A stretch of 42,193 nucleotides of DNA from Beijerinckiaceae bacterium (GTDB taxonomy: Bacteria > Pseudomonadota > Alphaproteobacteria > Rhizobiales > Beijerinckiaceae). Below are positions 14,458 to 35,559 of this stretch, in pieces (position 1 is the stretch's first letter; each line of letters opens with the position of its first letter). The notes below the pieces were generated by a model that made no database searches, was not told where the DNA came from, and saw only the letters and a list, made by a program, of their open reading frames with translations. A program made the translations under genes and the position numbers. The stretch covers positions 1-42,193 of the forward strand of contig JALOTF010000013.1 of the NCBI GenBank assembly GCA_025458025.1, given 5' to 3'.

Positions 14458-14475
14458 TGTCAGGCTGAGATTACA
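14458..14475. promoter_or_regulatory. PpsR/CrtJ operator, bchC-proximal
   Basis: This is a perfect TGT-N12-ACA palindrome (N12 = CAGGCTGAGATT) 18 bases before the bchC start. It is one of a pair; the other begins 50 bases further upstream. PpsR tetramers bind such paired sites and repress in oxygen and light. Confidence 0.82.
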
Positions 14476-14485
14476 GCCATACGTA

Positions 14486-14525
14486 ACTCTAGAGTGACGC
14501 TTCGGGTTGTCAATTTGTTTTGACA
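14486..14525 (-). promoter_or_regulatory. bchC promoter with embedded PpsR operator
   Basis: A perfect TGT-N12-ACA site lies at 14508-14525 (N12 = CAATTTGTTTTG). Read on the minus strand, its near half is TTGACA (14513-14508), followed 16 bases on by TAGAGT (14491-14486), four of six matches to a sigma-70 -10 element. The repressor site thus covers the -35 hexamer, the arrangement known for bchC in Rhodobacter. Confidence 0.78.
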
Positions 14526-16608: not shown

Positions 16609-16652
16609 TGTAATGATGATTGGACAGTTTTTTATGTCAAGCATTTATGTCA
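16609..16652. promoter_or_regulatory. Tandem PpsR operators in the crtE/crtD divergent promoter
   Basis: The site at 16609-16626 is a perfect TGT-N12-ACA (N12 = AATGATGATTGG). The site at 16635-16652 is TGT-N12-TCA, one base off. They are separated by exactly 8 bases, the spacing known for cooperative CrtJ binding. The second site contains TTGACA on the minus strand (16640-16635), a possible -35 for crtE. One operator pair could control crtEF and crtDC at once. Confidence 0.75.
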
Positions 16653-16681
16653 TTCCAGCTTGACGCTTCCGGGAGCCCCTC

Positions 16682-18238
16682 ATGCGCCTCTCTCCGCCGG
16701 TCGCGGTGATCGGAGCCGGCTTTGGCGGGCTCGCGGCGGCGTTGCGACTCGCGGCAAAGGGCTGCGCGGTGACCGTGTTCGAGGCGATGTCCGAACCGGG
16801 CGGCAAGGCGCGCGCGGAGCGCTCCGGCCCGCATGCGCTGGAGGCGGGCCCCACCGTTTTCACCCTCAAGCCGGTCTTTGATGCGCTCTTCGCGGAAATC
16901 GGCGCGAATTTCGACAGCGCCGTAAAGACCACCCCCCTCGCCTGCCTCGCGCGGCATTTCTGGCCGGATGGCTCGCAGCTCGATCTCTTCGCGGATCACG
17001 CCCGCTCCGTGGAGGCGATTGCCGCCTTTGGCGGCCCGAAGGCGGCAGAAGGCTTCCGCCGTTTTTCGGTGGATAGCCGCGCGATGTTCGAGGCGCTGGA
17101 CCTCTCGTTCATGCGTCGGGCCAAGCCGGGGCCGATGGAGCTCGCGCGCATCGCCGGCCTTTCGGCCATGCTGCGGATCCGCCCCTTCACGAAGCTGTGG
17201 GATGCCCTGGGGGATTACTTCCCCGATCCGCGCCTGCGCCAGCTTTTCGGGCGCTACGCCACCTATTGCGGCTCGAACCCCTTCCTCGCGCCGGCCACGC
17301 TGATGCTCATCGCGCATGCCGAGATGGAGGGTGTCTGGGCCATCGAGGGCGGATTGCCCGCTTTGGCCAAGGCGATGCTGCGTGAACTCGAACGCCTCGG
17401 CGGCACCTTGCGCTGCAATGCGCGTGTCGCAAGCATCGAAACACGGCAGGGCCGTGTTTCCGGCGTTGCGCTAGAGAGCGGCGAGGTTTTCGCGGCCGAG
17501 GCGGTGATCGCCAATGCCGATACCGAGGCCTTGTGCCTTGGTTTGCTGGGCGATGCCGTGCGCCAGGCCGTGCCGGCGCGCCCGCGCGAGATGCGCTCGC
17601 TCTCGGCCATAACGGTCAGCTTTGCCGGGCATATCTCGGGGCCGGGCCTGCCCATGCACAACGTGTTCTTCTCGCGCGATTATGCCCGCGAATTCCGGCA
17701 ACTCGCGCACGGCCATGTGCCGGATGACCCCACCCTCTACCTCTGCGCGCTCGACCGGCGCGATAGCCCCATGAACCGGCGAGGCGGCGAAGAACGCTTC
17801 CTCGCACTCATCAACGCGCCGCCCCGCGGCGATGATCCCACCTTCGAGACTTTGGAGCCCTCCCGATGCCAAGCCCGGATCGAGACCGTTCTCTCCCGCC
17901 ATGGCGTGCGAATCCTGCCGGGCCGCCACCCCCCGCGAACGATGACACCGCGCGATTTCGAGGCGCTGTTTCCGGGATCGGGGGGCGGACTTTACGGCCG
18001 GGCGACCCACGGGGCGATGGCCTCCTTCCAGAGGCCGGCGGCGCGCACCCGGATTCCGGGCCTTTATTGTGCCGGCGGGAGCGTGCATCCGGGAGCTGGC
18101 GTGCCCATGGTGACGCTTTCGGGCAGCCTCGCGGCGGAAGCCTTGCTGACGGATCTCGCTTCGACCTCGCGGTTCCATCCGGTGGCTATGCCTGGTGGTA
18201 TCTCGACGCCGTCAGCGACGATGGCCGGAACGCGCTGA
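16682..18238 (+). CDS. crtD: Carotenoid 3,4-desaturase (methoxyneurosporene dehydrogenase)
   Basis: CrtD introduces the C-3,4 double bond in 1-hydroxy or 1-methoxy carotenoids. This 518-residue flavoprotein has the FAD motif IGAGFGG (residues 10-16), the EPGGKARAER block, the CGSNPFLAPATL block, and the C-terminal YCAGGSVHPGAGVPM FAD motif. A CGGGAG ribosome site stands before the ATG. The natural family end would come near AAEALLTDLAST. The frame continues another 20 or so residues, over sequence that codes for CrtC in another frame, so the extreme C-terminus is unusual. Confidence 0.93.
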   Translation: MRLSPPVAVIGAGFGGLAAALRLAAKGCAVTVFEAMSEPGGKARAERSGPHALEAGPTVFTLKPVFDALFAEIGANFDSAVKTTPLACLARHFWPDGSQLDLFADHARSVEAIAAFGGPKAAEGFRRFSVDSRAMFEALDLSFMRRAKPGPMELARIAGLSAMLRIRPFTKLWDALGDYFPDPRLRQLFGRYATYCGSNPFLAPATLMLIAHAEMEGVWAIEGGLPALAKAMLRELERLGGTLRCNARVASIETRQGRVSGVALESGEVFAAEAVIANADTEALCLGLLGDAVRQAVPARPREMRSLSAITVSFAGHISGPGLPMHNVFFSRDYAREFRQLAHGHVPDDPTLYLCALDRRDSPMNRRGGEERFLALINAPPRGDDPTFETLEPSRCQARIETVLSRHGVRILPGRHPPRTMTPRDFEALFPGSGGGLYGRATHGAMASFQRPAARTRIPGLYCAGGSVHPGAGVPMVTLSGSLAAEALLTDLASTSRFHPVAMPGGISTPSATMAGTR

Positions 18239-19068
18239 CGATCATCGGTTTTGTCGGCAGCGTGTTCTCGCCGTATTATGCCTTCGCGCGGCGCAACAAG
18301 CCGGTGCCGGCGGAAAATCACGTCTCGCTTAATGTCGCGCTCTATGGCGAAAAGCGTGGCTGGGCCATGACCGAGCGCGGCGCATCGGCCCTCACGCGGG
18401 ACCGCGACTGGCTCGTGATCGGCCCGAGTTCCATGCGCTGGGAGGGGGCTGATCTCGTGATTTCCGTGCGGGAATGGGGCTTCCCCATCCCCCGCAGGTT
18501 GTTGGGAGAAATCCGCGTCACGCCGCGTGTCTGGGGTCAGCAGGCCTTTGTGCTCAACGAGCAGGGCCAGCATATCTGGCAACCCATCGCGCCCCTCGCA
18601 AGCGTGCGGCTCGATTTCGAGCGGCCTGATCTCACCTGGCGCGGCACGGGCTATCTCGACCACAATCGCGGCGATGTGCCCATCGCCGATGGCTTCGTGG
18701 ATTGGAGCTGGCAACGCGCGGCGCACGAGAACGGTGCGCTCGTCGCCTATTCCGGCCGGCGGCGCGATGGCCGCACCTTCGGTTTCTGCGTGGATTTCGG
18801 CCGCGATGGCGTGGAGATGGAGCAGGTTCTGCCGCCTCGGCAGGCCCTGCCCCGCACATTGTGGCGCGTGCCGCGCATCGCGCATGGCGAGGCGGGAACG
18901 AAGCTTGTGAAAACGCTGGAGGACACGCCCTTCTACTCGCGATCCCTCATCGAGATGGCGCATATGGGCCAGAAGCTGGAAACCGTGCAGGAAAGCCTGT
19001 CGCTCACGCATCTCACGCGACCTATCGTGCAGGCCATGCTGCCGTTTCGCATGCCGAGGCGCAGCTAG
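18067..19068 (+). CDS. crtC: Carotenoid 1,2-hydratase (hydroxyneurosporene synthase), start uncertain
   Basis: CrtC adds water to the psi end of neurosporene or lycopene. Conserved blocks include GGYAWWYLDAVSDDG, GSVFSPYYAFARR, the GTGYLDHNRGD motif and the DWSWQRA block. Family-like sequence begins near 18151 (SRFDLAVPSGG), which lies inside the crtD frame. Between the distant ATG at 17866 and this point the only standard start in this frame is TTG at 18067, with no good ribosome site; the next, GTG at 18262, would remove conserved residues. I used TTG 18067. Alternatives are a non-standard start, a frameshift from crtD, or a sequence error. The stop shares CTAG with the converging small gene. 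Confidence 0.88.
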   Translation: MCRRERASGSWRAHGDAFGQPRGGSLADGSRFDLAVPSGGYAWWYLDAVSDDGRNALTIIGFVGSVFSPYYAFARRNKPVPAENHVSLNVALYGEKRGWAMTERGASALTRDRDWLVIGPSSMRWEGADLVISVREWGFPIPRRLLGEIRVTPRVWGQQAFVLNEQGQHIWQPIAPLASVRLDFERPDLTWRGTGYLDHNRGDVPIADGFVDWSWQRAAHENGALVAYSGRRRDGRTFGFCVDFGRDGVEMEQVLPPRQALPRTLWRVPRIAHGEAGTKLVKTLEDTPFYSRSLIEMAHMGQKLETVQESLSLTHLTRPIVQAMLPFRMPRRS

Positions 19069-19211
19069 GTCTTTTCGGCTTCCGCACGCGCCTTCGCCTC
19101 CGCCGCCCGGCGATTCTCCCGCCGGAGCGACCAGAGCTGCTGGAAGCCGAAGCCGAGGCAGATGACCGCCGCCAGCGCCATTTCGATGAAGATCAGCGTA
19201 TTGCCATCCAT
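19065..19211 (-). CDS. Small membrane protein, 48 residues
   Basis: This short protein begins MDGNTLIFIEMALAAV, has a single transmembrane helix (about residues 5-24), and ends in a charged, Arg/Glu/Ala-rich helix (RRENRRAAEAKARAEAEK). It follows crtB by 14 bases and would be the last gene of the dxs-crtB run. Its stop codon overlaps that of crtC on the opposite strand. There is no strong ribosome site; coupling to crtB is likely. I do not recognise the family. A single-span protein could help assemble carotenoid or photosystem complexes, but that is a guess from position. Confidence 0.68.
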   Translation of the reverse strand: MDGNTLIFIEMALAAVICLGFGFQQLWSLRRENRRAAEAKARAEAEKT

Positions 19212-19225
19212 CAGCGAAACATGGA

Positions 19226-20275
19226 TCAGCGCGCGGGAAGATCCAGCCTGCGCTCGGCCCATTCGAGCTTCTCGATGATCGAGAGCACCGGCAGAACACG
19301 GCCCTTCATATCCCACCAGAGTGGCGGAAAGCGCGGGATGGCTCGATGCGGGCTCGCAGCACTGATCGCGTCGATCATGAAGCGGTTGGCCGCGAGCGGT
19401 TCAGTGGCGGTTTGCTTGCGACGCGCGGCGATCTCGCCGGAAAGCGGCGCATAGGCGCGAAAAGCCAGCACCATCTTCCAGCGATCCGGCACGACGGCGC
19501 GCCGCGCGATGGAATCAGCGCGATGGCGCCGAAGATCCGCGCCGATTTCCGCGTAAATAAGCCGCGCGGCGCGAATGGCGGGCCGGCAATCCGGCGGCAG
19601 CAGCACGATGCCGTTTTCGGCCCGCGCATAAAGGCGCTCGGCCTCGGCGAGCAGCCGAATGACGAGATTGGCAAGAGCGGGGCTGAAGGCGGGTTGCGCG
19701 AGGAGCTCGTCGGCATCGATCTCCGCTTCGGCCAGCCAGTCACGCGGCAAGTAAACCCTACCGTTCCGCGCATCCTCGCCCACATCGCGCGCGATATTCG
19801 TGAGCTGCATCGCGACCCCGAGATCGGAAGCCGCCGCGAGCGCCGCATCCGAGCGCGCGCCCATAAGGAGACTCATCACGATGCCGACAGAGCCAGCCAC
19901 ACGCGCCGCGTAATCCTGCAATTCGCCGAGGCTCTCATAGGCCCGGCCCTTGGCATCCCACGCAAACCCCTCGACCAGGGCATCCACCGGCGCGCGGGGA
20001 AGATTATGCTTCGCCATCACGGCTGCAAAAGCGCGATCCGCCGGGTGGTCGAAGGGCGTGCGCTGCACCATCGCCTCCACGCGCTCGCGAACATGCGCGA
20101 GGCCGGTTTCGGGGCATTCGCCGAGATCGATCAGGTCATCCGCCACACGGCAGAAGGCATAGAAGGCAGTGGCGGGGCGCACGACCCGATCCGGCAACAA
20201 CCGTGAAGCCATGGCGAAGGATCGGGAGCCCTTTTCCAGCAATTGCCGGCAGGCGAGGTAATCTGCTTCAAGCAT
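19226..20275 (-). CDS. crtB: Phytoene synthase
   Basis: CrtB joins two geranylgeranyl diphosphates to phytoene, the first committed carotenoid step. The 349-residue protein has both Asp-rich substrate-Mg motifs, DDLID (46-50) and DVGED (164-168), as well as GSRSFAMAS near the N-terminus and LTNIARDVGED. It overlaps the crtI 3' end by 8 bases, indicating coupled translation. The C-terminal 60 residues beyond the core are somewhat longer than in short CrtB proteins but show no damage. Confidence 0.96.
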   Translation of the reverse strand: MLEADYLACRQLLEKGSRSFAMASRLLPDRVVRPATAFYAFCRVADDLIDLGECPETGLAHVRERVEAMVQRTPFDHPADRAFAAVMAKHNLPRAPVDALVEGFAWDAKGRAYESLGELQDYAARVAGSVGIVMSLLMGARSDAALAAASDLGVAMQLTNIARDVGEDARNGRVYLPRDWLAEAEIDADELLAQPAFSPALANLVIRLLAEAERLYARAENGIVLLPPDCRPAIRAARLIYAEIGADLRRHRADSIARRAVVPDRWKMVLAFRAYAPLSGEIAARRKQTATEPLAANRFMIDAISAASPHRAIPRFPPLWWDMKGRVLPVLSIIEKLEWAERRLDLPAR

Positions 20276-21818
20276 GGTGCGCTCCGGCAGCGGCAGGAAC
20301 TACCTCATCGAGCACCTTCGCCGAGCAGAGGACACCCGGCACGCCCGCACCGGGATGCGTGCCCGCCCCCACGAGATAGAGCCCTTCGAGTTCCTCGCTG
20401 CGGTTATGCGGGCGGAACCACGCGCTCTGGAAAAGCGTGGGCTCGAGGCTGAAGGCCGCGCCATGCGTGGAAAGAAGCCGCGATTCGAAATCCAACGGCG
20501 TCGCCACGGCAGAGGTCACGAGATTCGCGCCGAGTTTCGGCAGCAGGGTCGCCTCGAGATGCGCCTGAATCCGTCGGCGCATGGGCTCGGCCTCGCGCGC
20601 CCAGTCGATCTTGCCTTGCAGGTTTGGCACGGGCACGAGGGCGTAGAAGGCATCATGCCCCGGCGGCGCAACCGAAGGATCGCTGGCCGAGGGACGGTGC
20701 AGATAGAGGCTGAAATCCTTCGAGAGCCGCTTCTCGGTGAAGATGTCATCGAGCAGGCCACGATAGCGCGGCCCCATCTGGATCGTGTGGTGATGCAGGT
20801 GCTCGTAGCGCTGCTTCGTGCCGAAATACCAGAGGAACACGCCCATGGAATAGCGCGCCTTCGCGAGCTTTTTCGCGGTCCAGCGCTGTTTTGGAAGATC
20901 GGCCAGCAACTTGCCATAGGTATGCGCGGTGCACGCGTTGGAGACGACGACATCCGCTTTCAGGCTCGTGCCATCGGCCAGTTCCACGCCCGTCGCACGA
21001 CCCTTCTCGTGCAGGATTCGCGTGACATCGGTGCCGAGGCGCAGTGTGTGCCCCTCCCCGCGCACGAGATCGGCGAGGCCGGTGACCACCGCGCCAGTTC
21101 CGCCCAGCGCATAGTGCACGCCGAATTCGCGCTCGAGATGCAGGATGAGCGCGTAAACCGCCGTCACATTGAACGGATTGCCGCCAATGAACAGCGGATG
21201 GAAGCTGAGCGCCATGCGCAGCCGCTCATCAGTGACGTACCGCGCGACCATCTTGTAGAGCGAGCGATCCGCCCGCATCAACGCCATTTGCGGCACCGCC
21301 CTGAGCATATCCGTGAGCTGCGAAAAGGGCTTCGCGGAAAGCTGCTCGTAGCCCACGCGATAGATCGCGGCGCTCTCCTTCAGGATCTTGGCATAACCCT
21401 CCGCCTCGCCCGGCGCGAAAGCCGTGATGCGCTGGCGCATGGTCTCCTCGTCGCCGCCCCAATCGAGATGCGAGCCATCGGCGAAGGCGATGCGATAGAA
21501 TGGATCGAGCGGCTTCAACGTGACGTGATCCGCCATCCGCTTGCCGCAGAGCGCCCAAAGCTCCTCTAGCAATTGCGGCGCAGTGATGAGCGTGGGGCCG
21601 CGATCGAAGGTGAAACCATCCTGCTTCAGCACGGTGGCGCGACCCCCGGGGGTGTCGAGCCGATCCACCACTGTCACGCGATAGCCGCGCGCCCCCAGAC
21701 GGATCGCGGCGGCCAAGCCACCGATGCCTGCGCCGATCACCACCGCATGCGGCCGCAGCGGATAGGGCACCGGCGCTCGTTCGCGCGCATCGGGCGGAAG
21801 GGGTGATTGCAGGCCCAT
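20268..21818 (-). CDS. crtI: Phytoene desaturase
   Basis: CrtI carries out three or four desaturations of phytoene to neurosporene or lycopene. The 516-residue flavoprotein has the N-terminal FAD motif VIGAGIGGLAAA, the DTPGGRATV block, the FDRGPTLIT block and the C-terminal VGAGTHPGAGVPGV signature. I take the ATG at 21818 as the start. A TTG at 21827 overlapping the bchO stop as TTGA is the alternative. The presence of crtC, D and F and absence of crtA suggest lycopene-derived spirilloxanthin as an end product, but the number of desaturation steps cannot be read here. Confidence 0.96.
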   Translation of the reverse strand: MGLQSPLPPDARERAPVPYPLRPHAVVIGAGIGGLAAAIRLGARGYRVTVVDRLDTPGGRATVLKQDGFTFDRGPTLITAPQLLEELWALCGKRMADHVTLKPLDPFYRIAFADGSHLDWGGDEETMRQRITAFAPGEAEGYAKILKESAAIYRVGYEQLSAKPFSQLTDMLRAVPQMALMRADRSLYKMVARYVTDERLRMALSFHPLFIGGNPFNVTAVYALILHLEREFGVHYALGGTGAVVTGLADLVRGEGHTLRLGTDVTRILHEKGRATGVELADGTSLKADVVVSNACTAHTYGKLLADLPKQRWTAKKLAKARYSMGVFLWYFGTKQRYEHLHHHTIQMGPRYRGLLDDIFTEKRLSKDFSLYLHRPSASDPSVAPPGHDAFYALVPVPNLQGKIDWAREAEPMRRRIQAHLEATLLPKLGANLVTSAVATPLDFESRLLSTHGAAFSLEPTLFQSAWFRPHNRSEELEGLYLVGAGTHPGAGVPGVLCSAKVLDEVVPAAAGAHHA

Positions 21819-21823
21819 GGCGT

Positions 21824-22714
21824 TCAACCTGTCTGGCGAAGCGAAACCGGCTTCGCGATATCGTGGATCAGCGCGGCAACCTCCAGCGGGTTTTCCTCAT
21901 GTACGAGGTGCCCGCCTTCCTTCAGCCAATGCAGATGGATGACCGGGTGCTTGCGCTTCAATTGTCGCGCATCCTCGGGCGAAATAGCCTTGTCGCCTTG
22001 CGCCACCACGAGATGCAGGCTGGCATTGAGATGCACCATCTCGTCGTTCAACGGCACGAGATCCCAGTTCGCCATCATGGTGATGGTCGATTGCAGATGC
22101 TCGCGCGAAAGAAACAGCCGCTGGTAGAGTTCTAGCCCGCGCGGGTCGATCCGCGAGCCCGTGCCCTCCATCAGCCGTCGGATGGCGCCGGGATCATTAG
22201 CCTGCCAGGCAAAGAAGCGCGGGACGAGCGGATTGAGCGCAAAGAACCGCGCCAGCGAGGAGAACGCCCGCCCCGCGCCACCGCCAAAGGGCCGAAGCGC
22301 GGCATTGAGCCCGATGATCGTATGCGGATGGATCGTGCCATCCAGCGCCATGCGGATGAGCAAGGCGCAGCCGGCGGAATGCCCCACGGCATCCATCGGC
22401 TTCTCATCGAGTTCCGCCAGAAGCGCCGCGAGAAGCTCCGCCATGCCGGGCAGCGACAATTCAGCCGAACGCGGCGTTTCCGTGAAGCCATGGCCCGGAA
22501 GATCCGGCGCGATCACGCGATAATCCCGCGCGAGCAAAGGCAGCAAATCGCGCCAGGAATGCGTGGAAGCCCCCGTGCCGTGCAGCAGCAGCAAAACCGG
22601 GCCCTTGCCGGCCACCTGCACATGCCAGGTGATGCCACCGGCCTTCACGAAGCGGCTGGCGTTGCAGTTCGGCCAATCCTTGCCGTCGCGATTCCAGTCC
22701 AGGGGCGCACTCAT
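21824..22714 (-). CDS. bchO: BchO, alpha/beta hydrolase of the Mg-chelatase operon
   Basis: BchO is an alpha/beta-hydrolase almost always encoded with bchI and bchD. The 296-residue protein has an oxyanion-type LHGTGAS block (44-50), the nucleophile elbow GHSAG with Ser113, and a C-terminal His in EGGHLVHEE. Its biochemical role is not settled, and Mg-chelatase support or ester handling has been proposed. Its ATG overlaps the bchD stop (ATGA). The N-terminal DWPNCNASRFV block is typical of the family. Confidence 0.94.
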   Translation of the reverse strand: MSAPLDWNRDGKDWPNCNASRFVKAGGITWHVQVAGKGPVLLLLHGTGASTHSWRDLLPLLARDYRVIAPDLPGHGFTETPRSAELSLPGMAELLAALLAELDEKPMDAVGHSAGCALLIRMALDGTIHPHTIIGLNAALRPFGGGAGRAFSSLARFFALNPLVPRFFAWQANDPGAIRRLMEGTGSRIDPRGLELYQRLFLSREHLQSTITMMANWDLVPLNDEMVHLNASLHLVVAQGDKAISPEDARQLKRKHPVIHLHWLKEGGHLVHEENPLEVAALIHDIAKPVSLRQTG

Positions 22715-24477
22715 GAGGCTCGCCTTTCCCGCTCCTGCCCCTGAAGGGCGGAAACGGCACTCACAAGCCGTTGCGGATCGGCCTGCGGCAACGGCAGGTA
22801 GCGGGCCTGCATGGCGCGGGCGAGCGAGGCCGCCTGCTCGGCGGGACGCGCGGAGGTATCGATCACGATGATCGGCTGGCGGAGTTCCGCAAGCCGCCGC
22901 CCCGAGGCCATCGCGTCTTCCATCGCCTGCACACGGCCCGGTGATCCATCCCGGGCGATATTCGCGCGGCCATCGGTCATGAAGACGAGGAAGGGCGTCT
23001 GCCCCGCGCGCAACACGGATTCGGCCGTGAGCCGCGCATTGTCGATGGCCGTCGCGAGTGGCGTGCCACCTCCGCCGACCATCGCAGCCAGCGCGCGGGA
23101 GGCACGGGTCAGCGCGCGCGTCGGTGGCAGAACCACATCAGCCTTGCGACCCCGGAAGGCGATCAACGCCACCTCGTCGCGGCGCACATAGCATTCGGCC
23201 AGCAGAAGCTGCACCGCGCCCTTGGCTTCCTGCAGGCGCTGAAGCGCCGAGGAACCGGAGGCATCGACCACGAAAATGGTCGTGGTGCGGCTGCGTGCCT
23301 TCCGCCGGACAATGCGAAAATCCTCGCGGCGCACGGCAATGCCTTGCGCAGGCTCGCCCGGGCCGTGGCGGAGTTTCTGCCAGGGCGCGGCGGCGCGGAG
23401 CGTATCGATCACGCTGAGGCGCGCGCCAGTGCGCGGATCACCCGATTTCGAACCGAAAACACGTCCGCGCTCGCGCGCATTCTTTGCCGCCTGCCCGGCA
23501 GAGCCGGTGCGGCGCGTGCGCAGGTCGCCCATCTTGGCGATGAGGCTTTCGAGCAGCTTCGGCGGCAAGCTCGCGAGTGCGGCCTCCACCGGAATATCCT
23601 CAGGGATATCATCAGGTTCGCGGCGGGACCGGCTTTCGTCCGGCGCCGGGGGCTCTTCCGGTGCGGCGGGAGCCTCGGCGGGCTCCTCCGCACTTTCCGG
23701 CAAGCGCGTGGCGCGCGGCAGCATGGCCAGCGCAATGGCGTTGAGAATGTCGCCGCTTTCCACACGAATGCGGGCTTCAAGCGCGGCGAGCACGCGCGCG
23801 ATCGCCAAAGCCTGCAAAGGCGTGCGCAAGGAGGCGATGCCGAGTTGCAAGGCAGCCGCACAGAAATCCGTGAGGTGGCGCGCATCGGCCTGCACCCTCG
23901 GCAGCAGCGCACGCGCGGCGCGGACCGCTTCCGCATCATGCGGGTGACCGGAAGCCGGCAGCACCGCGAGATCGAGGCAAAGGCCGAGCCGATCCGTCAG
24001 CGCGAGCGGCGGCGCTTCGCCGGGCTCGCCCTCGTCGCAGGCGATCAGGCCGAATTCCGCCGGGTGCAGTAGTGCGAGGCCATCGCGCTCGGAGCGCGCC
24101 TCGCCCGTATCCATCGCGCGGGTGATGAGGGCTGCCGCGGCGGGGTCAAGCCTTTCGGCCATGGTTACCAGCAACACACCACCGTGGGCAGCCGCGAGCA
24201 GGCCGGTTTCGCTCACCGGGCGCCCCGAAGCGAGCGTGGCGGAGAGATCCAGCCCGCCAAGCAGCCGCCCTTCGGAAACACCCGCCGGCACGCGCTTCCA
24301 CGCGATTTCCGGCGGCATCAGACGATTGAGATCCGCGAGCCAGCGGTCGCGTGCGGGGCCGGCCCCGGCGCGCAGCCACAGGCCACCGACAGCACGGGGT
24401 GCCACCGCGAGAACCGAGGCGGCGAGCCCCGCGAGGTCGCCGACCGTGGGAGCCGGTGCGGCGGGTTCGGCGCTCAT
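22711..24477 (-). CDS. bchD: Mg-chelatase subunit D
   Basis: BchD is the AAA+/VWA subunit that, with BchI and BchH, inserts Mg2+ into protoporphyrin IX. The 588-residue protein has three parts: a degenerate AAA+ domain, a Pro/Glu-rich acidic linker (around residues 255-300, EEPAEAPAAPEEPP), and a VWA domain whose MIDAS motif is DASGS with Asp405. The ATG overlaps the bchI stop (ATGA), and the stop overlaps the bchO start. Length is normal for the family. Confidence 0.96.
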   Translation of the reverse strand: MSAEPAAPAPTVGDLAGLAASVLAVAPRAVGGLWLRAGAGPARDRWLADLNRLMPPEIAWKRVPAGVSEGRLLGGLDLSATLASGRPVSETGLLAAAHGGVLLVTMAERLDPAAAALITRAMDTGEARSERDGLALLHPAEFGLIACDEGEPGEAPPLALTDRLGLCLDLAVLPASGHPHDAEAVRAARALLPRVQADARHLTDFCAAALQLGIASLRTPLQALAIARVLAALEARIRVESGDILNAIALAMLPRATRLPESAEEPAEAPAAPEEPPAPDESRSRREPDDIPEDIPVEAALASLPPKLLESLIAKMGDLRTRRTGSAGQAAKNARERGRVFGSKSGDPRTGARLSVIDTLRAAAPWQKLRHGPGEPAQGIAVRREDFRIVRRKARSRTTTIFVVDASGSSALQRLQEAKGAVQLLLAECYVRRDEVALIAFRGRKADVVLPPTRALTRASRALAAMVGGGGTPLATAIDNARLTAESVLRAGQTPFLVFMTDGRANIARDGSPGRVQAMEDAMASGRRLAELRQPIIVIDTSARPAEQAASLARAMQARYLPLPQADPQRLVSAVSALQGQERERRAS

Positions 24478-25646
24478 GGCGCAGCTTTCTCCGGCCCGAA
24501 GACTTCCTCAATCGCGCGTTCCACACGCACCGCAGCGCGCGCTTCATCCAGCGGGTTGCGCCTCAGGCGATGCTGAAGCGCCATCACGCCCACGGCGCGC
24601 ACATGCTCGCCATCCACCGATGTAGCGCCTTGCCACGCGGCCATGGCGCGCGCGGCGCGGATGAGCGTGAGTTCACCGCGCAGGCCATCGGTGCCAAGCG
24701 CAAGGCAGAGTTCGGTTGCCTTGCGCAGGGCCTCCTCGCTCACCGCGAGCATCGGCAGGCGACGGCGCGCGGCAGAGATCTTGCGGCGCAAGGCGACATC
24801 CTTGGCCTTCCACTGGGCGCAGAAACCATGGGGATCGCGGTCGAAGGCATCACGGCGGCGGATCACCTCGATCCGCGTTTCGAGATCCGTCGGGGTCACC
24901 ACATCCAGCGAGAGGCCGAAACGATCCAGCAATTGCGGGCGGAGTTCACCCTCCTCCGGGTTGCCCGAACCAATCAGCACAAAACGGGCGGGATGCCGGA
25001 TAGAGAGCCCTTCGCGCTCCACGACATTCTCGCCGGAGGCCGCCACATCGAGCAGCACATCCACGAGATGATCCTCCAGCAGGTTCACCTCATCGATGTA
25101 GAGATAACCGCGATGCGCCTTGGCCAGCAGGCCGGGCTGGAAGGCCTTTTCGCCCCGCGCCAGCGCCTTTTCGAGGTCCAGCGCGCCGACAACGCGATCC
25201 TCGGTCGCGCCCAAAGGCAGATCCACCACCGGCACGGGAATCTCGATGCTTGCATCCAGCGATTTGCCTTGCCGCAGACCGCGGCAATGCTCGCAGGAAT
25301 CGGCCGGGCGACCCGGTTCGCAGGCATAGGGGCAACCGGCCACGGCGCGCATCGGCGGCAAAAGCGCTGCCAGCGCCCGGATGGCCGTGGATTTGCCGGT
25401 GCCGCGATCCCCGAAAATTAGCACGCCGCCGATGGTGGGGTCGACGGTCGTCAGCAGCAGGGCGGTCTTCATCGCCTCCTGCCCGACAAGCGCCGAAAAC
25501 GGATAGAGCGCGCGCCCGCGCGGCGCTTCCGCCTGCGGTTCGGGGCGCTGCGGACGCGGACGACCCGCCGGCTGGTAGCGCGGAGCGCTGTCCCCGGCGG
25601 GTTCGGGATGCGCATAGCCCTGAATGGCCAGCGACTCTGGAGACAT
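24474..25646 (-). CDS. bchI: Mg-chelatase ATPase subunit I
   Basis: BchI forms the AAA+ hexamer that powers Mg insertion. It has Walker A GDRGTGKST (79-87), Walker B LYIDEVNLL with Asp185-Glu186, and a cysteine cluster in CPYACEPG and SCEHCRG. I chose the ATG at 25646 because GAGGAGA lies at good spacing before it. An upstream ATG (25661) overlaps the ispH stop as ATGA and would add five residues, so both starts are possible. The N-terminal 45 residues are Pro/Arg/Ala-rich and not conserved. Confidence 0.96.
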   Translation of the reverse strand: MSPESLAIQGYAHPEPAGDSAPRYQPAGRPRPQRPEPQAEAPRGRALYPFSALVGQEAMKTALLLTTVDPTIGGVLIFGDRGTGKSTAIRALAALLPPMRAVAGCPYACEPGRPADSCEHCRGLRQGKSLDASIEIPVPVVDLPLGATEDRVVGALDLEKALARGEKAFQPGLLAKAHRGYLYIDEVNLLEDHLVDVLLDVAASGENVVEREGLSIRHPARFVLIGSGNPEEGELRPQLLDRFGLSLDVVTPTDLETRIEVIRRRDAFDRDPHGFCAQWKAKDVALRRKISAARRRLPMLAVSEEALRKATELCLALGTDGLRGELTLIRAARAMAAWQGATSVDGEHVRAVGVMALQHRLRRNPLDEARAAVRVERAIEEVFGPEKAAP

Positions 25647-25657
25647 GGGAATTCTCC

Positions 25658-26650
25658 TCATGGGACGGGGTCCGTGAGACGGGGCGGCAAACGGAAGACC
25701 ACGTCTTCCTGCACGCCCTGGAGTTCGGTAAGGGTGACAGCGCGAAACTGGCGCAGATGCGCGATAGTGCTCTGGATCAGCTCTTCCGGTGCGGAGGCAC
25801 CAGCGGAGAGCCCGAGGCGCGACACGCCGTCAAACCAGCGCATATCGATGGCTTCCGGCCCCTCCACGAGGCGGCTCGGCACGCCGAGTTGCGCACCAAT
25901 CTCGCGAAGACGACTGGAATTGGAACTGGAAGGCGACCCGATAACGAGGATCAGATCAGTCCGGCCCGCCATCTCCATCACCGCGCCCTGGCGATTCTGG
26001 GTGGCGTAACAGATGTTCCGCGTATCCGGCCCGAGAATGGCGGGGAAACGCGCCTTTAGCGCTGCGATCACCTCGCGCGTATCCTGCAGGCCAAGAGTGG
26101 TCTGCGTGATATAGGCGACGCGGGTTTCATCCTGCACCACGAGGCCAGCAACCTCTTCCGGCTTCGCGATGATATGCAGGCGACCATCGATCTGCCCGCG
26201 TGTGCCTTCCACCTCCGCATGGCCGGCATGGCCGATGAGGATCACGTCATAGCCGTTTTCGGCATGGCGACGGCCCTGCACATGCACCTTTGTGACCAGC
26301 GGGCAAGTCGCATCGATCACATCGAGGTGCCGGCCATCTGCCGCGCGCTCGACATCCCGCGAAACGCCATGCGCGGAGAAGATCGTCACCGCGCCTTCGG
26401 GGATTTCATCGACTTCCGAGACGAAAATCGCGCCTTTTTCGCGCAATTGCTCCACCACATGGGTGTTGTGCACAATCTCGTGGCGCACATAGACCGGCGC
26501 GCCATGGCGCGCGAGCGCCCGCTCGACGATCTCGATGGCGCGCACCACGCCCGCGCAGAAGCCGCGCGGATTGGCGAGAAAAATCTCCAGCGGCGGCAGG
26601 GGCGAACGCGCCTCAGCCACCGGAACGAAGGGAGCCTGATGGGCTGTCAT
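25658..26650 (-). CDS. ispH: 4-hydroxy-3-methylbut-2-enyl diphosphate reductase
   Basis: IspH (LytB) is the last MEP-pathway enzyme, an iron-sulfur protein that makes IPP and DMAPP. The 330-residue protein has the three cluster cysteines: Cys32 (PRGFCAG), Cys116 (DATCPL) and Cys214 (NICYATQ), along with HNTHVVEQL and the SSNSSRL substrate block. Its ATG overlaps the dxs stop, and its stop overlaps the first possible bchI start. This places it in the same transcript as dxs, Mg-chelatase and crtIB. An ispH inside a PGC is not part of the usual core set. Confidence 0.95.
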
Positions 26651-28563
26651 GCCTCCTCCCTCTCATCACTATGCGAATAGCGACGGATTTCAGCCCGTTT
26701 CGAGCGCTCCGCGAGCGAAATCAGCAACCCGCTGGCCCCACCCTTGCGCTGGCGCAGGGGCCGCGGCGTCACCATTTCGAGCGATAGGGCGACAAGGCTA
26801 TCCTCGTCGAGTCCGGCCTCGGCATAGAGCCGCGCAGGGCTATCCTGATCCTGGAAGCGATCCGGCAGATGGGCCGCGCGGATCACCAGCTTTTCGGGCA
26901 GCCAGCTCTGCATCACGAGATGCTGGATCACATGGCTACAGAAGCCGCCAATCGCGGCATCCTCAACCAGCAGCAGGCCCTCATGCTCGCGAGCAAGTTG
27001 CTTCACCAGAGCCTTGTCGAAGGGCTTGGCGAAGCGTGCGTCGGCAACCGTGACCGAAATGCCGATGGCCTCCAGCCGTTCCGCCGCCTTCAGGCATTCG
27101 CCGAGGCGCGCGCCATAGGAGAGAATCGCGAGATCTGTGCCCTGCCGCAGCACGCGGCCACGACCGATGGGCAGCACCTGCCCACGGTCCGGCAGCGCCA
27201 CGCCGAGGCCATCGGCGCGCGGATAGCGGAAGGCGATCGGCCCTGCATCGTAAGCCGCGGCGGTCGCGACCATATGCACCAGCTCGGCTTCATCGCCGGC
27301 GGCCATCAGCACCATGTTCGGCAGACAGCCGAGAGCCGCGACATCAAACGCGCCAGCATGGGTGGGGCCATCGGCGCCCACGAGCCCGGCGCGATCCATT
27401 GCGAAGCGCACCGGCAGGTTCTGCAGGGCCACATCATGCATCAGCTGGTCGTAGGCACGCTGCAGGAAGGTAGAGTAGATCGCGCAGAATGGCTTCATGC
27501 CATCGCAGGCAAGGCCCGCAGCAAAGGTCACGGCATGTTGCTCGGCGATGCCCACATCGAAGAACCGCTCGGGGAAACGCTTCTCGAAGAGATCCGTCCC
27601 CGTGCCCGAGGGCATGGCCGCAGTGATCGCGATGATGCGCGAATCGCGCTCGGCCTCGGCCAGAAGCGCCTGCCCGAACACCTTGGTATAGGAAGGCGCG
27701 GCGGCGACCGGCTTCATCTGCTTGCCGGTCGCGACATCGAACGGCACCACGCCGTGATAGCAATCGGCACTGGCCTCGGCTGGAGCATAGCCCTTGCCCT
27801 TGCGCGTCTTCACATGCAGCAGCACTGGCCCTTCAGCGGCACGGGCATCGCGCAAGGCCGGCAGAAGGCTCGCGAGATCATGCCCGTCGACGGGCCCGCG
27901 ATAATCGAGGCCCAAAGCCCCGAACAGGCTCGCGGGGGTGTCGTCCGTGGCGTTGCGACCGCGCAGGGCGGTGAGGTGATTGGCCAGCGCGCCTACGGGG
28001 GCGGCAATCGACATGTCATTGTCGTTGAGGATGATCACGAGGTTCGAGCGCAGCGAACCCACATTGTTCATCGCCTCATAGGCCATGCCGGCGGACATCG
28101 CGCCATCACCGATCACGCAGACGACCTTGTGATCTTTCTGCTGCCGGTCGCGCGCCACGGCAAAGCCGAGCGCGGCGGAAATCGAGGTCGAGGTATGCGC
28201 GGCACCAAAGGCGTCATAGGGGCTCTCGTCGCGCCGCGTGAAGCCCGCAAGGCCACCGCCTTGCCGCAAGCTGCGAATGCGGTCGCGCCGCCCCGTGAGA
28301 ATCTTGTGCGGGTAGCTCTGGTGCCCGACATCCCAGATGAGCACGTCGCGCGGGGTTTCATACACGCGATGCAGGGCCACGGTGAGTTCCACCACACCGA
28401 GGCCAGCCCCGAGATGCCCGCCGGTTTCGGAAACCGCATGGATCATCTCGAGCCGCAATTCATGGGCCAGCATTGCGAGATCGCGCTCCGGCAGGGCGCG
28501 CAGATCGGCGGGCACCGTCACGCGATCCAAAGTCGGAGTTGCGGGCTGCGGAGCATCCGGCAT
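26647..28563 (-). CDS. dxs: 1-deoxy-D-xylulose-5-phosphate synthase
   Basis: DXS is the thiamine-diphosphate enzyme that starts the MEP isoprenoid pathway from pyruvate and glyceraldehyde-3-phosphate. The 638-residue protein has the ThDP motif GDGAMSAG (152-159) followed by ILNDNDMSI, then [10 protein letters not shown] early on, and the transketolase-like pyrimidine domain with [13 protein letters not shown]. The ATG at 28563 has GGGAGG upstream. A PpsR operator sits 43 bases before it. This gene heads the run dxs-ispH-bchI-bchD-bchO-crtI-crtB, so isoprenoid entry would follow photosynthesis control. A second housekeeping copy elsewhere in the genome is possible. Confidence 0.96.
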
Positions 28564-28606
28564 GGTCGCCACCTCCCGAGGGTGTTCCTTGAGCGAAACA
28601 CTCAAC

Positions 28607-28624
28607 TGTCAATTTATTTTGACA
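28607..28624. promoter_or_regulatory. PpsR/CrtJ operator before dxs
   Basis: This is a perfect TGT-N12-ACA site (N12 = CAATTTATTTTG) that differs at one position from the bchC distal site at 14508-14525. On the minus strand its near half is TTGACA (28612-28607), a likely -35 hexamer. No good -10 hexamer was found at 16-18 bases. No second site was found nearby. Confidence 0.78.
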
Positions 28625-28675
28625 GGTGTGGAGATGCATGCAAGCGAAAAACGCCAGACACCGCAGGAATTCTGT

Positions 28676-28954
28676 TCAACGGTCGTGACGATTGAGCCGT
28701 CGCAAAAGGTCCCAGCCATGCGCGAGGCCGGCAAAGGCCAAAGCGAGGCCGCTCCACCGGGCTTCCGCCCCGAGCATCGCCAGAATGAGTGCGCTAATGA
28801 GGCCCGCACCGGCACCAACAATCAGCAGGATGGTGAGGCGCGGCAGTGCTTTCGCATCGCCCCTTTGCGCCATCCGCCAGAGCCAGACCAGTTCGGCCAG
28901 CAGCACCAGCAACGCGAGGATCGCGCCTGCGAAGACAAGGCCGGGCTCGCTCAT
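28676..28954 (-). CDS. Small membrane protein of unknown function, 92 residues
   Basis: This protein begins MSEPGLVFAG, and its ATG overlaps the tspO stop as ATGA. It has two to three hydrophobic segments (about residues 6-26, 40-60 and 66-80) and ends in a basic LLRRLNRHDR tail. It is the last gene of the bchG-bch2-bchP-tspO run. I do not recognise a family. Tight coupling to tspO suggests a partner in the same membrane process. The longer reading of this frame extends backwards through tspO and is rejected as overlap. Confidence 0.72.
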   Translation of the reverse strand: MSEPGLVFAGAILALLVLLAELVWLWRMAQRGDAKALPRLTILLIVGAGAGLISALILAMLGAEARWSGLALAFAGLAHGWDLLRRLNRHDR

Positions 28955-33050: not shown

Positions 33051-34511
33051 TCAGGCATCCTCGTCGTCATCCATTCCGTTGAGATTGCCGAGGCCATGAC
33101 GACGCATCTTCGCATAGAAACTCTGGCGACTGAGACCGAGCATCTGCGCGGCAGAGGCCCGATTGTCGCCTGAGCGCTTCAGCGCCGCCTCGATGCAGAG
33201 CTTCTCGATGATGTCGGCGGATTCGCGCACCATGTCCTTCAGCGAGACACGGCCGACGAGTTCAGTCACCTGATCGACGGAGGTATAGGGGTTCGGCTCA
33301 CGCACGGCCGCACCGGGCTGCAAAAGCGCGCGGTGCATCAGCAAGCCGTAGATGTTGGATTGCCCCACAAGCGTCGAGACGGCCGTGACCTCGATATCCT
33401 CGGAGCCCCCGAAGGAGCCGCGCAGGATGGTGGGGAAACTGCGCACGCTCTGGCTTTCGCGCAGGCGTGCCATCAGCAATTCCATATCGACGCCCGGTCG
33501 CCCAAGCCAGCGGCTGATCGCCTGCCCGAGGATCTGCTCCTTGGAGGCGAGGTGCACGAGTTCAAGGAAAGCCTGATTGGCCTCCGTGACACGCCAGTCC
33601 TCATCGATGACGACAAAGGCGACAGGCAGGTGCTCGATGATGCGCACGACATCCTGTGTGGCACCACCAGCGCCAGCCACAGCCGCCGCGCCACGCGCTG
33701 GCAACAATTGAAGCAGGAAAGACACCTCCTGCTCCTGCCGGAAAACCGAGACACTCACCGTGAACACTGTGCCTGCCGTAGCGAGGCGCGCCTCGATATT
33801 GGGCGCTGTGCCGGTTCGGCGCGCAGTCTTGAGCGCGGATTCGAGCAACTGGCCGCTGTCGTAATCAAAGCAGGAGAGCACAGTGCGGTTCACGAGACGG
33901 TCGGTCACCGGCGCGAGTTCCTGGATCGCCGCTGGATTGGCCTCGGTGATGCGCAAGGTCGCGCCATCCACGATCAGAACAGGATCCGTGGTCACATGGA
34001 ATAGCATGCGATAACGCGTTTCCGCCGAGCGATAACGGCTGTAATCGCGCTCGAGAATGTCCTGCGTTTCCACAAGCTTGCGCTGGAGGGCGGAGAGTCG
34101 TCGCAGATCGCGCCCCACCGCAATCACCCGGCCCGTTCGGCCCAGAGCAACAGCGGAATAGCGGATCGGAAGGTCGACGCCCTTATCCGTGGGATGATTG
34201 ATCTCGCGCGATTGTGCCGGGCTGCCTTTGAGCGCGCGCCCAAGCAGGTCTTCCACCTTCGGGCGACTTTCCGGGGTCACCACCTCGATCCAGGCGCGGC
34301 CGCGCCAGCCCTGGCCGACCTCGCGGGCAAGGTCGATATCACTGGTCACGACATCGTGGATGACGCCGGCACCGTCGACAACAATCGCAATATCGGACAA
34401 CGAGGCTATGAGCTTCTCCGCAGAGTCAGGCGTAACGTCAACGGCCCATTCCGGGGTACCGCCAGGTCCGTGATGGAGAGAGGCCTGATCTTCCATTGTA
34501 CTTGCGCTCAT
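33051..34511 (-). CDS. ppsR: PpsR/CrtJ photosynthesis repressor
   Basis: PpsR represses bch, crt and puc genes in oxygen and high light. The 486-residue protein has an N-terminal PAS-like domain, two further PAS domains (about 165-275 and 285-400), a linking helix, and a C-terminal Fis-type HTH (NRASAAQMLGLSRQSFYAKMRRHG). It has only two cysteines: Cys214, and Cys439 just before the HTH, the place of the redox-active Cys420 of CrtJ. Starts at 34511 and 34496 are both possible with weak ribosome sites; I took 34511. It follows ppaA by 120 bases. Confidence 0.95.
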   Translation of the reverse strand: MSASTMEDQASLHHGPGGTPEWAVDVTPDSAEKLIASLSDIAIVVDGAGVIHDVVTSDIDLAREVGQGWRGRAWIEVVTPESRPKVEDLLGRALKGSPAQSREINHPTDKGVDLPIRYSAVALGRTGRVIAVGRDLRRLSALQRKLVETQDILERDYSRYRSAETRYRMLFHVTTDPVLIVDGATLRITEANPAAIQELAPVTDRLVNRTVLSCFDYDSGQLLESALKTARRTGTAPNIEARLATAGTVFTVSVSVFRQEQEVSFLLQLLPARGAAAVAGAGGATQDVVRIIEHLPVAFVVIDEDWRVTEANQAFLELVHLASKEQILGQAISRWLGRPGVDMELLMARLRESQSVRSFPTILRGSFGGSEDIEVTAVSTLVGQSNIYGLLMHRALLQPGAAVREPNPYTSVDQVTELVGRVSLKDMVRESADIIEKLCIEAALKRSGDNRASAAQMLGLSRQSFYAKMRRHGLGNLNGMDDDEDA

Positions 34512-34631
34512 TTTGGTATTCAGCAGACAGCATCTGATTTGGATTCGGCCCGGGCTGTCGATATAAACAAGAGTTGTGCCACACAAGGCCGGATCGCATC
34601 CGGAATCACCTTCTCCACGACCTTTGGGCTA

Positions 34632-35543
34632 TCATGACCCTTCGGCCGGGATCCGACGCTCAAGGGCTTCAAACAGTTCTGTGAAAGGCAACGTGGGCAG
34701 ATCAGCCCCCGCCGCCATTGCCTTGTCCGGGTCCGCAGCGAAGGGCGCGCCCCCCAGAAGAATGCACATCTTCGGCTCTCGCGATGCTTTCCGCAGGCGT
34801 TTGATCAGCTCCGGCGCATGCCTTTCGCCAATGCTCCCCTGCACCGACAGGCCGACGACATTGAAACGCTCGGCCGCCACGAGATGCAGCAAAACCTCTT
34901 CGCGCATTGTGGCATCACAGCGACAATCCCACCCCGCCTGCTGAAAGCGGATGCCCAGCATGCGGAGGCCAAAGGAATGCGCCTCACCGGGCATCGGCAC
35001 CAGCAGCATGCGCCGCTCTGCGAGGGGAGTCGCCAGCGGTTGCGGCGCGAATTCATGCAACAGGCGCTGCAAGGTCACAAGCCCGAGCGAGACCTCCACA
35101 AAACACAGACGATCCTGCTCCCAGGCATCCCCGAGCCTTTGCGCGGCCACGGCGAGAATGCCGGCCATCCGATCATCAAGAAGGCCAAAGGGATGACGCG
35201 CAGGCGCCAGCAAGGCTAAAGCGGCGGCGCAATTGCCCTCCGCCAAGCGCACGAGAAAGGTTTCGAAATCGGCCTCTGACAGCACCTCACCCGAGCGCTC
35301 GCCCGAGAGGGACACAACCGGAGGGTGCAGCGCGCCATGGCGCCGCAGCAAGGCGGTCAACACAGAGGCCTCGACGGTGCGCTCGATCAGCGCCTGCGAT
35401 GAGCGAGCGCGTCCACTCCGCGAATCGCGCCCTGTTTCGTAATCGTTACGCGCATCAAACGAAGACGAAAAACGGGTCAGCGCCCCATCGATGCCTTCTG
35501 TAAGATCCACGTTTTTCAAACCGTCGTCGTAGCTGCTACCCAT
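34632..35543 (-). CDS. ppaA: PpaA/AerR cobalamin-binding antirepressor
   Basis: PpaA/AerR binds B12 and modulates PpsR in response to light. The 303-residue protein has a divergent N-terminus (about 1-75, Ser/Arg-rich) and a cobalamin-binding SCHIC-type domain. Visible blocks include PMPGEAHSFGLRMLGIRFQQAG and VVGLSVQGS; His in the GEAHSFG block fits the family. The ATG at 35543 has GGGGGAGG upstream. A perfect PpsR operator lies 17 bases before it, so PpsR likely controls its own partner. It is next to ppsR and divergent from bchF, as in Rhodobacter. Confidence 0.93.
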   Translation of the reverse strand: MGSSYDDGLKNVDLTEGIDGALTRFSSSFDARNDYETGRDSRSGRARSSQALIERTVEASVLTALLRRHGALHPPVVSLSGERSGEVLSEADFETFLVRLAEGNCAAALALLAPARHPFGLLDDRMAGILAVAAQRLGDAWEQDRLCFVEVSLGLVTLQRLLHEFAPQPLATPLAERRMLLVPMPGEAHSFGLRMLGIRFQQAGWDCRCDATMREEVLLHLVAAERFNVVGLSVQGSIGERHAPELIKRLRKASREPKMCILLGGAPFAADPDKAMAAGADLPTLPFTELFEALERRIPAEGS

Positions 35544-35559
35544 CACGCCCTCCCCCGGG

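Follow-up and report, generated by a model that had tools for sequence, protein, structure and literature searches.

Proteins of the PpsR/CrtJ type carry a redox cysteine in the DNA-binding domain (Cys420/424). Their operators consist of two copies of a TGT-N12-ACA palindrome, either distant from each other or close together, in the latter case as a rule with a spacing of 8 bp (9 bp is also known). The protein is described as a tetramer that binds "typically" with eight-nucleotide spacing (PMC9144470), a wording from which we take the 8 bp spacing to be usual, not strict. At bchC of R. capsulatus, 8 bp separate the CrtJ sites; elsewhere, including at bchODI-crtA, they are 45–500 bp apart (PMC6199135). 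Spacers of 8 and 9 bp are reported for Rubrivivax, where PpsR binding is redox-dependent with the 9 bp but not with the 8 bp spacer (PMC4452267). In D. shibae, PpsR sites overlap the -35 and -10 elements of bchF (PMC10890935). The gene dxs (DXPS) lies inside the photosynthesis clusters of Rhodobacterales, downstream of puf (PMC3176799, PMC6052148), and R. sphaeroides dxsA is listed as a ChIP-seq target of PrrA, with positive regulation (PMC4263372). No report of a PpsR operator at dxs was found in the portions of the literature searched, which was largely open-access and did not extend to the R. sphaeroides PpsR regulon studies.

The locus described here comes from Beijerinckiaceae bacterium (assembly GCA_025458025.1; 3.29 Mb in 153 contigs, 97% complete). 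The stretch analysed, hereafter the window, is the entire contig JALOTF010000013.1 (42,193 nt), and is a photosynthesis gene cluster. It resembles the R. capsulatus bchC operator in that a bch operon has two adjacent TGT-N12-ACA palindromes near its start, and in that the same genome encodes PpsR and an AerR-like protein. It differs in that the spacer is 6 bp rather than 8 bp and in that the pair heads dxs-ispH-bchIDO-crtIB. The bchC promoters of five relatives (G137, G110, G166, G260 and G253) have the 8 bp form. The R. capsulatus bchODI-crtA promoter likewise has CrtJ sites at Mg-chelatase genes; there, however, the sites are distant from each other, and the operon name as given contains no MEP gene (PMC6199135). 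As in Rhodobacterales, dxs is inside the cluster, but here it leads bchIDO together with ispH and has its own operator. Finally, promoters within a single genome differ in spacer length, as reported for the pucB and crtI promoters of Rubrivivax gelatinosus (PMC4452267); the sequence here gives 6 versus 8 bp, at dxs and bchC.

A probable tandem operator precedes dxs

The first-pass annotation of this DNA had pointed to a single 18-base PpsR operator before dxs, one mismatch away from the distal bchC operator. The 18-mer (site 1, TGTCAATTTATTTTGACA as read in the window) is indeed exact at its position, and differs from the distal bchC site (TGTCAATTTGTTTTGACA, 14508–14525) at one base. It occurs once in the whole genome, and ends 43 nt before the dxs ATG (28563, minus strand). 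What had gone unnoticed is the other half of the feature, a further TGT-N12-ACA palindrome (site 2, TGTTCCTTGAGCGAAACA) that lies 6 bp closer to dxs. Both palindromes are exact, and they form a tandem operator pair with the two closely placed copies of a PpsR/CrtJ operator, at a spacing shorter than the typical one. The earlier claim of a PpsR operator at dxs holds in that the sequence fits PpsR, is conserved and shares its cluster with ppsR; the single site becomes a pair. We consider it highly probable, on these and the comparisons below, that sites 1 and 2 are the upstream and downstream halves of one tandem PpsR operator, which controls the operon dxs-ispH-bchI-bchD-bchO-crtI-crtB (Table 1).

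Table 1. Positions of the operator pair, the genes behind it and the candidate regulators in the window
Feature	Position	Strand	Remarks
PpsR-type operator site 1 (upstream)	28607..28624	-	coding strand TGTCAAAATAAATTGACA; kept in 15/15 g1 and g12 loci with dxs before ispH or bchI (window included) and in G255
PpsR-type operator site 2 (downstream)	28583..28600	-	coding strand TGTTTCGCTCAAGGAACA; 6 bp spacer to site 1
-35-like TTGCAT	28638..28643	-	candidate promoter, inferred; weak -10-like CAAAAT at 28616–28621, inside site 1
dxs	26647..28563	-	TIGR00204, 739.6 bits (cut-off 465.95); second copy, the other on contig C101
ispH (lytB), second copy	25658..26650	-	4 nt overlap with the dxs end; other copy on contig C26
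bchI, Mg-chelatase subunit I	24474..25661	-	
bchD, Mg-chelatase subunit D	22711..24477	-	
bchO	21824..22714	-	
crtI-family phytoene desaturase	20268..21827	-	TIGR02734; first start codon TTG, true start maybe a few codons later
crtB-like phytoene synthase	19226..20275	-	SQS_PSY; best NCBIfam NF045921, 344.5 bits, below the cut-off of 500; last of the overlapping run
ppsR	33051..34511	-	ORF opens at 34586, likely ATG at 34511; TIGR02040, 397 bits (cut-off 275.4)
AerR/PpaA-like protein, B12-binding domain	34632..35546	-	PF02310, 43.7 bits; candidate PpsR partner

The ppsR gene, the only one in the genome to exceed the PpsR cut-off, and the AerR-like gene, whose product is a candidate AerR by its position and domain, lie 4–7 kb from the pair. 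Cys464 of the ppsR ORF falls just before the helix-turn-helix (KLCIEAALKRSGDNR).

The first-pass annotation had also noted a TTGACA hexamer on the coding side. It is there on the minus strand, and on the plus strand as well, because site 1 is palindromic. As a -35 element it is doubtful: the hexamer is kept in the window clade and in three of six g12 loci, and is missing from 8 of 15 aligned loci (which read TAGACA, TGGACA or CTTACA), and no consensus promoter accompanies it. A consensus scan returned no promoter, and none with a -10 at 16–18 nt from TTGACA; since this is so, overlap of the pair with the promoter (-35/-10 region) is a prediction. The three clades compared below share a TTGC(A/G) element, which starts 18, 19 or 26 nt before site 1 and could serve as the -35.

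The pair heads a run of seven genes

On the minus strand the gene order is bchG, a PucC-family gene, bchP, tspO, a small conserved ORF, the site, and then dxs-ispH-bchI-bchD-bchO-crtI-crtB. Every junction from dxs to crtB overlaps by 4 to 8 nt (measured on ORF ends; the bchO-crtI overlap depends on the TTG start), and cotranscription of the run is therefore likely. The stretch from 16609 to 28583 contains no further exact TGT-N12-ACA. The site had been proposed to act on dxs; it does stand before dxs, but the unit that it heads also takes in ispH, Mg-chelatase and early carotenoid genes. The tight overlaps are not universal: two relatives, L135 and L139, have gaps of 72 to 210 nt between their dxs, ispH and bchI matches. 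The second ispH copy has three cysteines, at residues 32, 116 and 214.

The dxs and ispH genes of the run are second copies

We discarded the picture of a single-copy dxs under PpsR, because the genome has two dxs (one in the cluster, one on C101) and two ispH (one in the cluster, one on C26). No TGT-N12-ACA occurs within 300 bp upstream of any of eight housekeeping dxs genes (the genome's own and seven others), of its own housekeeping ispH, or at five other dxs loci. The site hence does not bring general isoprenoid supply under PpsR, contrary to the earlier proposal that isoprenoid precursor supply as such comes under this repressor. PpsR control of the operon, which is very likely, would cover a pigment-dedicated supply together with Mg-chelatase and the early carotenoid genes.

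A maximum-likelihood tree was built from 69 Dxs proteins. In it, nine cluster copies from g1 and six from g12 form one clade (support 100/97), separate from the housekeeping copies of G000, G117, G137 and G110. The second dxs of G084 joins this clade (support 100/98). We compared 29 genomes chosen from two genera (17 g1, 12 g12). PpsR is present in 18, which include all 16 with the dxs pair. Seventeen of these 18 have two dxs genes, and in the eighteenth (G248, 83% complete) only the cluster copy is seen; each of the 11 PpsR-less genomes has one. Among the 29, a second dxs occurs only where PpsR does. Two genomes with PpsR and a second dxs, G084 and G310, have a bchI with no dxs in front of it and no pair; the 300 bp before the second dxs of G084 are likewise free of sites.

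The Dxs proteins also differ in a linker. Between DNDMSI and GPxDGH, the cluster copies of the window, G192 and G117 have 36 residues, versus the usual 67 found in all 47 other measurable rows (19 of the 69 rows were not measurable). The cluster Dxs of the window clade thus goes without 31 linker residues (DNDMSI-GPVDGH), while the housekeeping copy is full length. The short-linker Dxs of the window still exceeds the TIGR00204 cut-off.

The pair is conserved in two genera

A bchI search of 397 genomes of the family gave 126 positive genomes with 128 bchI places, of which 124 were fetched besides the window; G342 and G156:C7 (without upstream DNA) and G143:C25 (a weak second match) were left out. 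In 22 loci, dxs lies directly before ispH or bchI: nine in g1 (window included), six in g12 and seven in g29. Two exact sites precede dxs in all 15 g1 and g12 loci, 24 bp apart start to start in 14 of them and 23 bp in G248. A whole-genome pattern search yielded a sixteenth case, G255, with the same pair; its assembly is incomplete, has no bchI match, and the contig stops inside dxs. The spacer measures 6 bp in 15 of the 16 pair-bearing genomes (the window and 14 relatives) and 5 bp in one. The locus with the 5 bp spacer (L132, G248) has no ispH match between dxs and bchI, whose matches are 245 nt apart.

Three clades hold the TGT/ACA ends and the gap, and the interiors of the palindromes have diverged: the two sites read TGTCAAAATAAATTGACA / TGTTTCG...GAACA in the window clade, TGTCAAGAATGCTAGACA / TGTCACTCATTGCGGACA in an example from clade B, and TGTATCGTCAGCCTTACA / TGTAAATTCAAGTTGACA in one from g12. 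The strength of this result lies in the comparison between clades, because flanks are also conserved within one clade.

Could the pair bind PpsR and yet be silent or of minor effect, the operon being read mainly by transcription coming in from bchG-pucC-bchP-tspO, or being under another regulator, for instance one of the PrrA/RegA type? We think this unlikely, while recognizing what speaks for it. The upstream genes run in the same direction, with ~110 nt from the last small ORF to dxs, and no terminator was found in 28500–28800. R. sphaeroides dxsA is listed as positively regulated by PrrA (PMC4263372). Moreover, a bound site need not regulate, since 101 of the 108 aerobic CrtJ peaks in R. 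capsulatus ChIP-seq are reported without a nearby expression change (PMC5362033). If the pair were idle, however, it is hard to see why it stays at dxs in six g12 loci with different upstream neighbours (bchG, pucC, bchP and tspO have no match in the ~9 kb upstream of dxs in any of the six), or why spacing and TGT/ACA ends are kept in three clades. These points argue for PpsR control of the operon, which we hold to be very likely.

In genus g29, none of six dxs-bchI loci has an exact pair (the seventh, L173, stops within dxs and was left out); one of the six, L164, carries two sites with one mismatch each, which keep the 24 bp step and overlap the start codon. Among the best 80 of 591 confirmed loci from a scan of named-genome contigs for gene context, the arrangement appears only in L020, from Beijerinckiaceae bacterium LE19-338.1D, a metagenome assembly of the same genus as the window; its upstream DNA is that of G137 (same contig) and was counted once, as G137. 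At L033 and L082, dxs lies near bchP with no exact site before it. When ispH was searched for in 397 genomes of the order (E up to 1e-122), at least 14 genomes matched, 13 of them besides the window's own, at 60–66% identity; the operon-bearing g12 genomes are not among the matches listed, and spread across the order is thus possible.

Six g5/g13 loci (L163, L165, L168, L169, L185 and L186) have an ispH, without dxs, that precedes bchI and is read in the same direction; in L169, L185 and L186 it is no more than 600 nt away. No exact TGT-N12-ACA pair was found at any of the six. These layouts suggest that, within the family, MEP genes came to stand before bchI on more than one occasion.

All five clade B loci (L133–L137) have a third exact site, e.g., TGTCATCGAATCTTGACA, ~264 bp upstream of site 1. 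It is absent from the window and from L130–L132. It is a possible distant partner of the pair.

Frequency of sites and pairs

Taken singly, TGT-N12-ACA is barely commoner genome-wide than the reversed control pattern (161 versus 143 matches), and we gave up any argument from a lone site. It is the second site (28583–28600) and the conservation in relatives that set the dxs operator above chance. The window is rich in sites, with 11 against 2.12 expected, a number reached in 0 of 100 shuffles; besides the dxs pair, exact sites lie within 60 bp of each other at its bchF and bchC ends, where their starts are 45 and 50 bp apart. The first 60 regions fetched gave 14 exact pairs within 60 bp, all 14 at dxs, and none came from another 75 regions, among which were housekeeping and other dxs loci; both sets sample part of each cluster's promoters.

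Pairs with the 6 bp spacer were also sought throughout the 29 genomes. They occur in 24 places, 15 at dxs and nine elsewhere, as against one for the reversed control. We therefore dropped the notion that a 6 bp pair is in itself PpsR-specific genome-wide: 9 of 24 are elsewhere, two of the nine in the PpsR-less G235 and G148. Such pairs, together with the looseness of the pattern, are what might be said for the palindromes being operators of another dimeric regulator with a TGT-N12-ACA-like site. We regard this as very improbable, as the dxs pair is confined to PpsR-bearing genomes (16 of 16) and site 1 is one base from a site of bchC, a classic CrtJ target (PMC5362033).

By sequence likeness, five of the nine pairs away from dxs are one place common to clade B, and a similar sequence is found in PpsR-less G235. 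Pairs of this kind, near 1864–1905 of L273 (one of the five) and in L274, lie away from photosynthesis genes; in L273, an ORF taken by eye for a GntR-type regulator adjoins an FAD-dependent oxidoreductase-like ORF. Pairs of the L273/L274 type are possibly operators of another regulator. L273, L274, L275, L277 and L278 have no match to 19 cluster proteins.

That the dxs sites are RNA hairpins or chance is scarcely credible. In favour of it, the TGTCAA/TTGACA arms of site 1 make a perfect inverted repeat in the window clade, and much of the DNA around the site is common to close relatives. Against it, clade B and g12 have shorter paired arms at unchanged spacing, and in 20,000 dinucleotide shuffles of the 250 bp upstream at each of three loci (one per clade) the 24 bp pair never arose, and two or more sites did so in 0.045%, 0 and 0.075%.

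Proposed regulation and the role of the spacer

The tandem PpsR operator would work as follows: (i) two PpsR units bind side by side, cooperatively, (ii) the bound protein covers the promoter region and transcription start and blocks RNA polymerase, and (iii) redox or light signals relieve the repression, perhaps via the AerR-like protein. Since the dxs and ispH of the operon are second copies carried by the cluster, relief would add the first and the last MEP enzyme together with Mg-chelatase and the early carotenoid enzymes; the housekeeping copies would keep quinones and other isoprenoids supplied. The conserved double PpsR site probably switches a seven-gene pigment operon, in response to oxygen or light as we infer, such that extra precursors would be made only alongside pigments. 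The locus would then be a concrete case of pigment isoprenoid supply split from general supply by a second gene copy and a photosynthesis operator.

Where PpsR binds with different spacers, its behaviour may differ as well. Redox-dependent binding in Rubrivivax varies with the spacer (PMC4452267) and so, by analogy, a 6 bp spacer may behave differently. An exact 8 bp-spaced pair is present in 11 of the 29 genomes. In the five places that were fetched (G137, G110, G166, G260 and G253) it lies before bchC in every case, and these five relatives have 8 bp at bchC and 6 bp at dxs in the same genome. Among the others, the 8 bp pairs of G349, G378, G242, G179 and G205 look alike and that of G310 looks different; the bchC promoters of G176, G117 and G248 are without an exact 8 bp pair. 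A tentative idea, which we would not put above a possibility, is that the spacer is a promoter-specific dial: one PpsR would act through a 6 bp operator at the precursor/Mg-chelatase operon and an 8 bp operator at bchC, one that clade B and most of g12 have in exact form and that has decayed in the window, with different oxygen or light thresholds, and the second dxs-ispH under the 6 bp operator would be a pigment-only isoprenoid supply. The two promoters, kept in two genera, offer a natural pair of 6 and 8 bp spacers for asking how PpsR spacing sets the redox or light response.

The bchC promoter of the window (14458–14525) has three palindromes, with gaps of 8 and 6 bp. The middle one, decayed to CGT-N12-ACG, is separated by 8 bp from the distal site and by 6 bp from the proximal one; it is exact in G137 and G166 of clade B.
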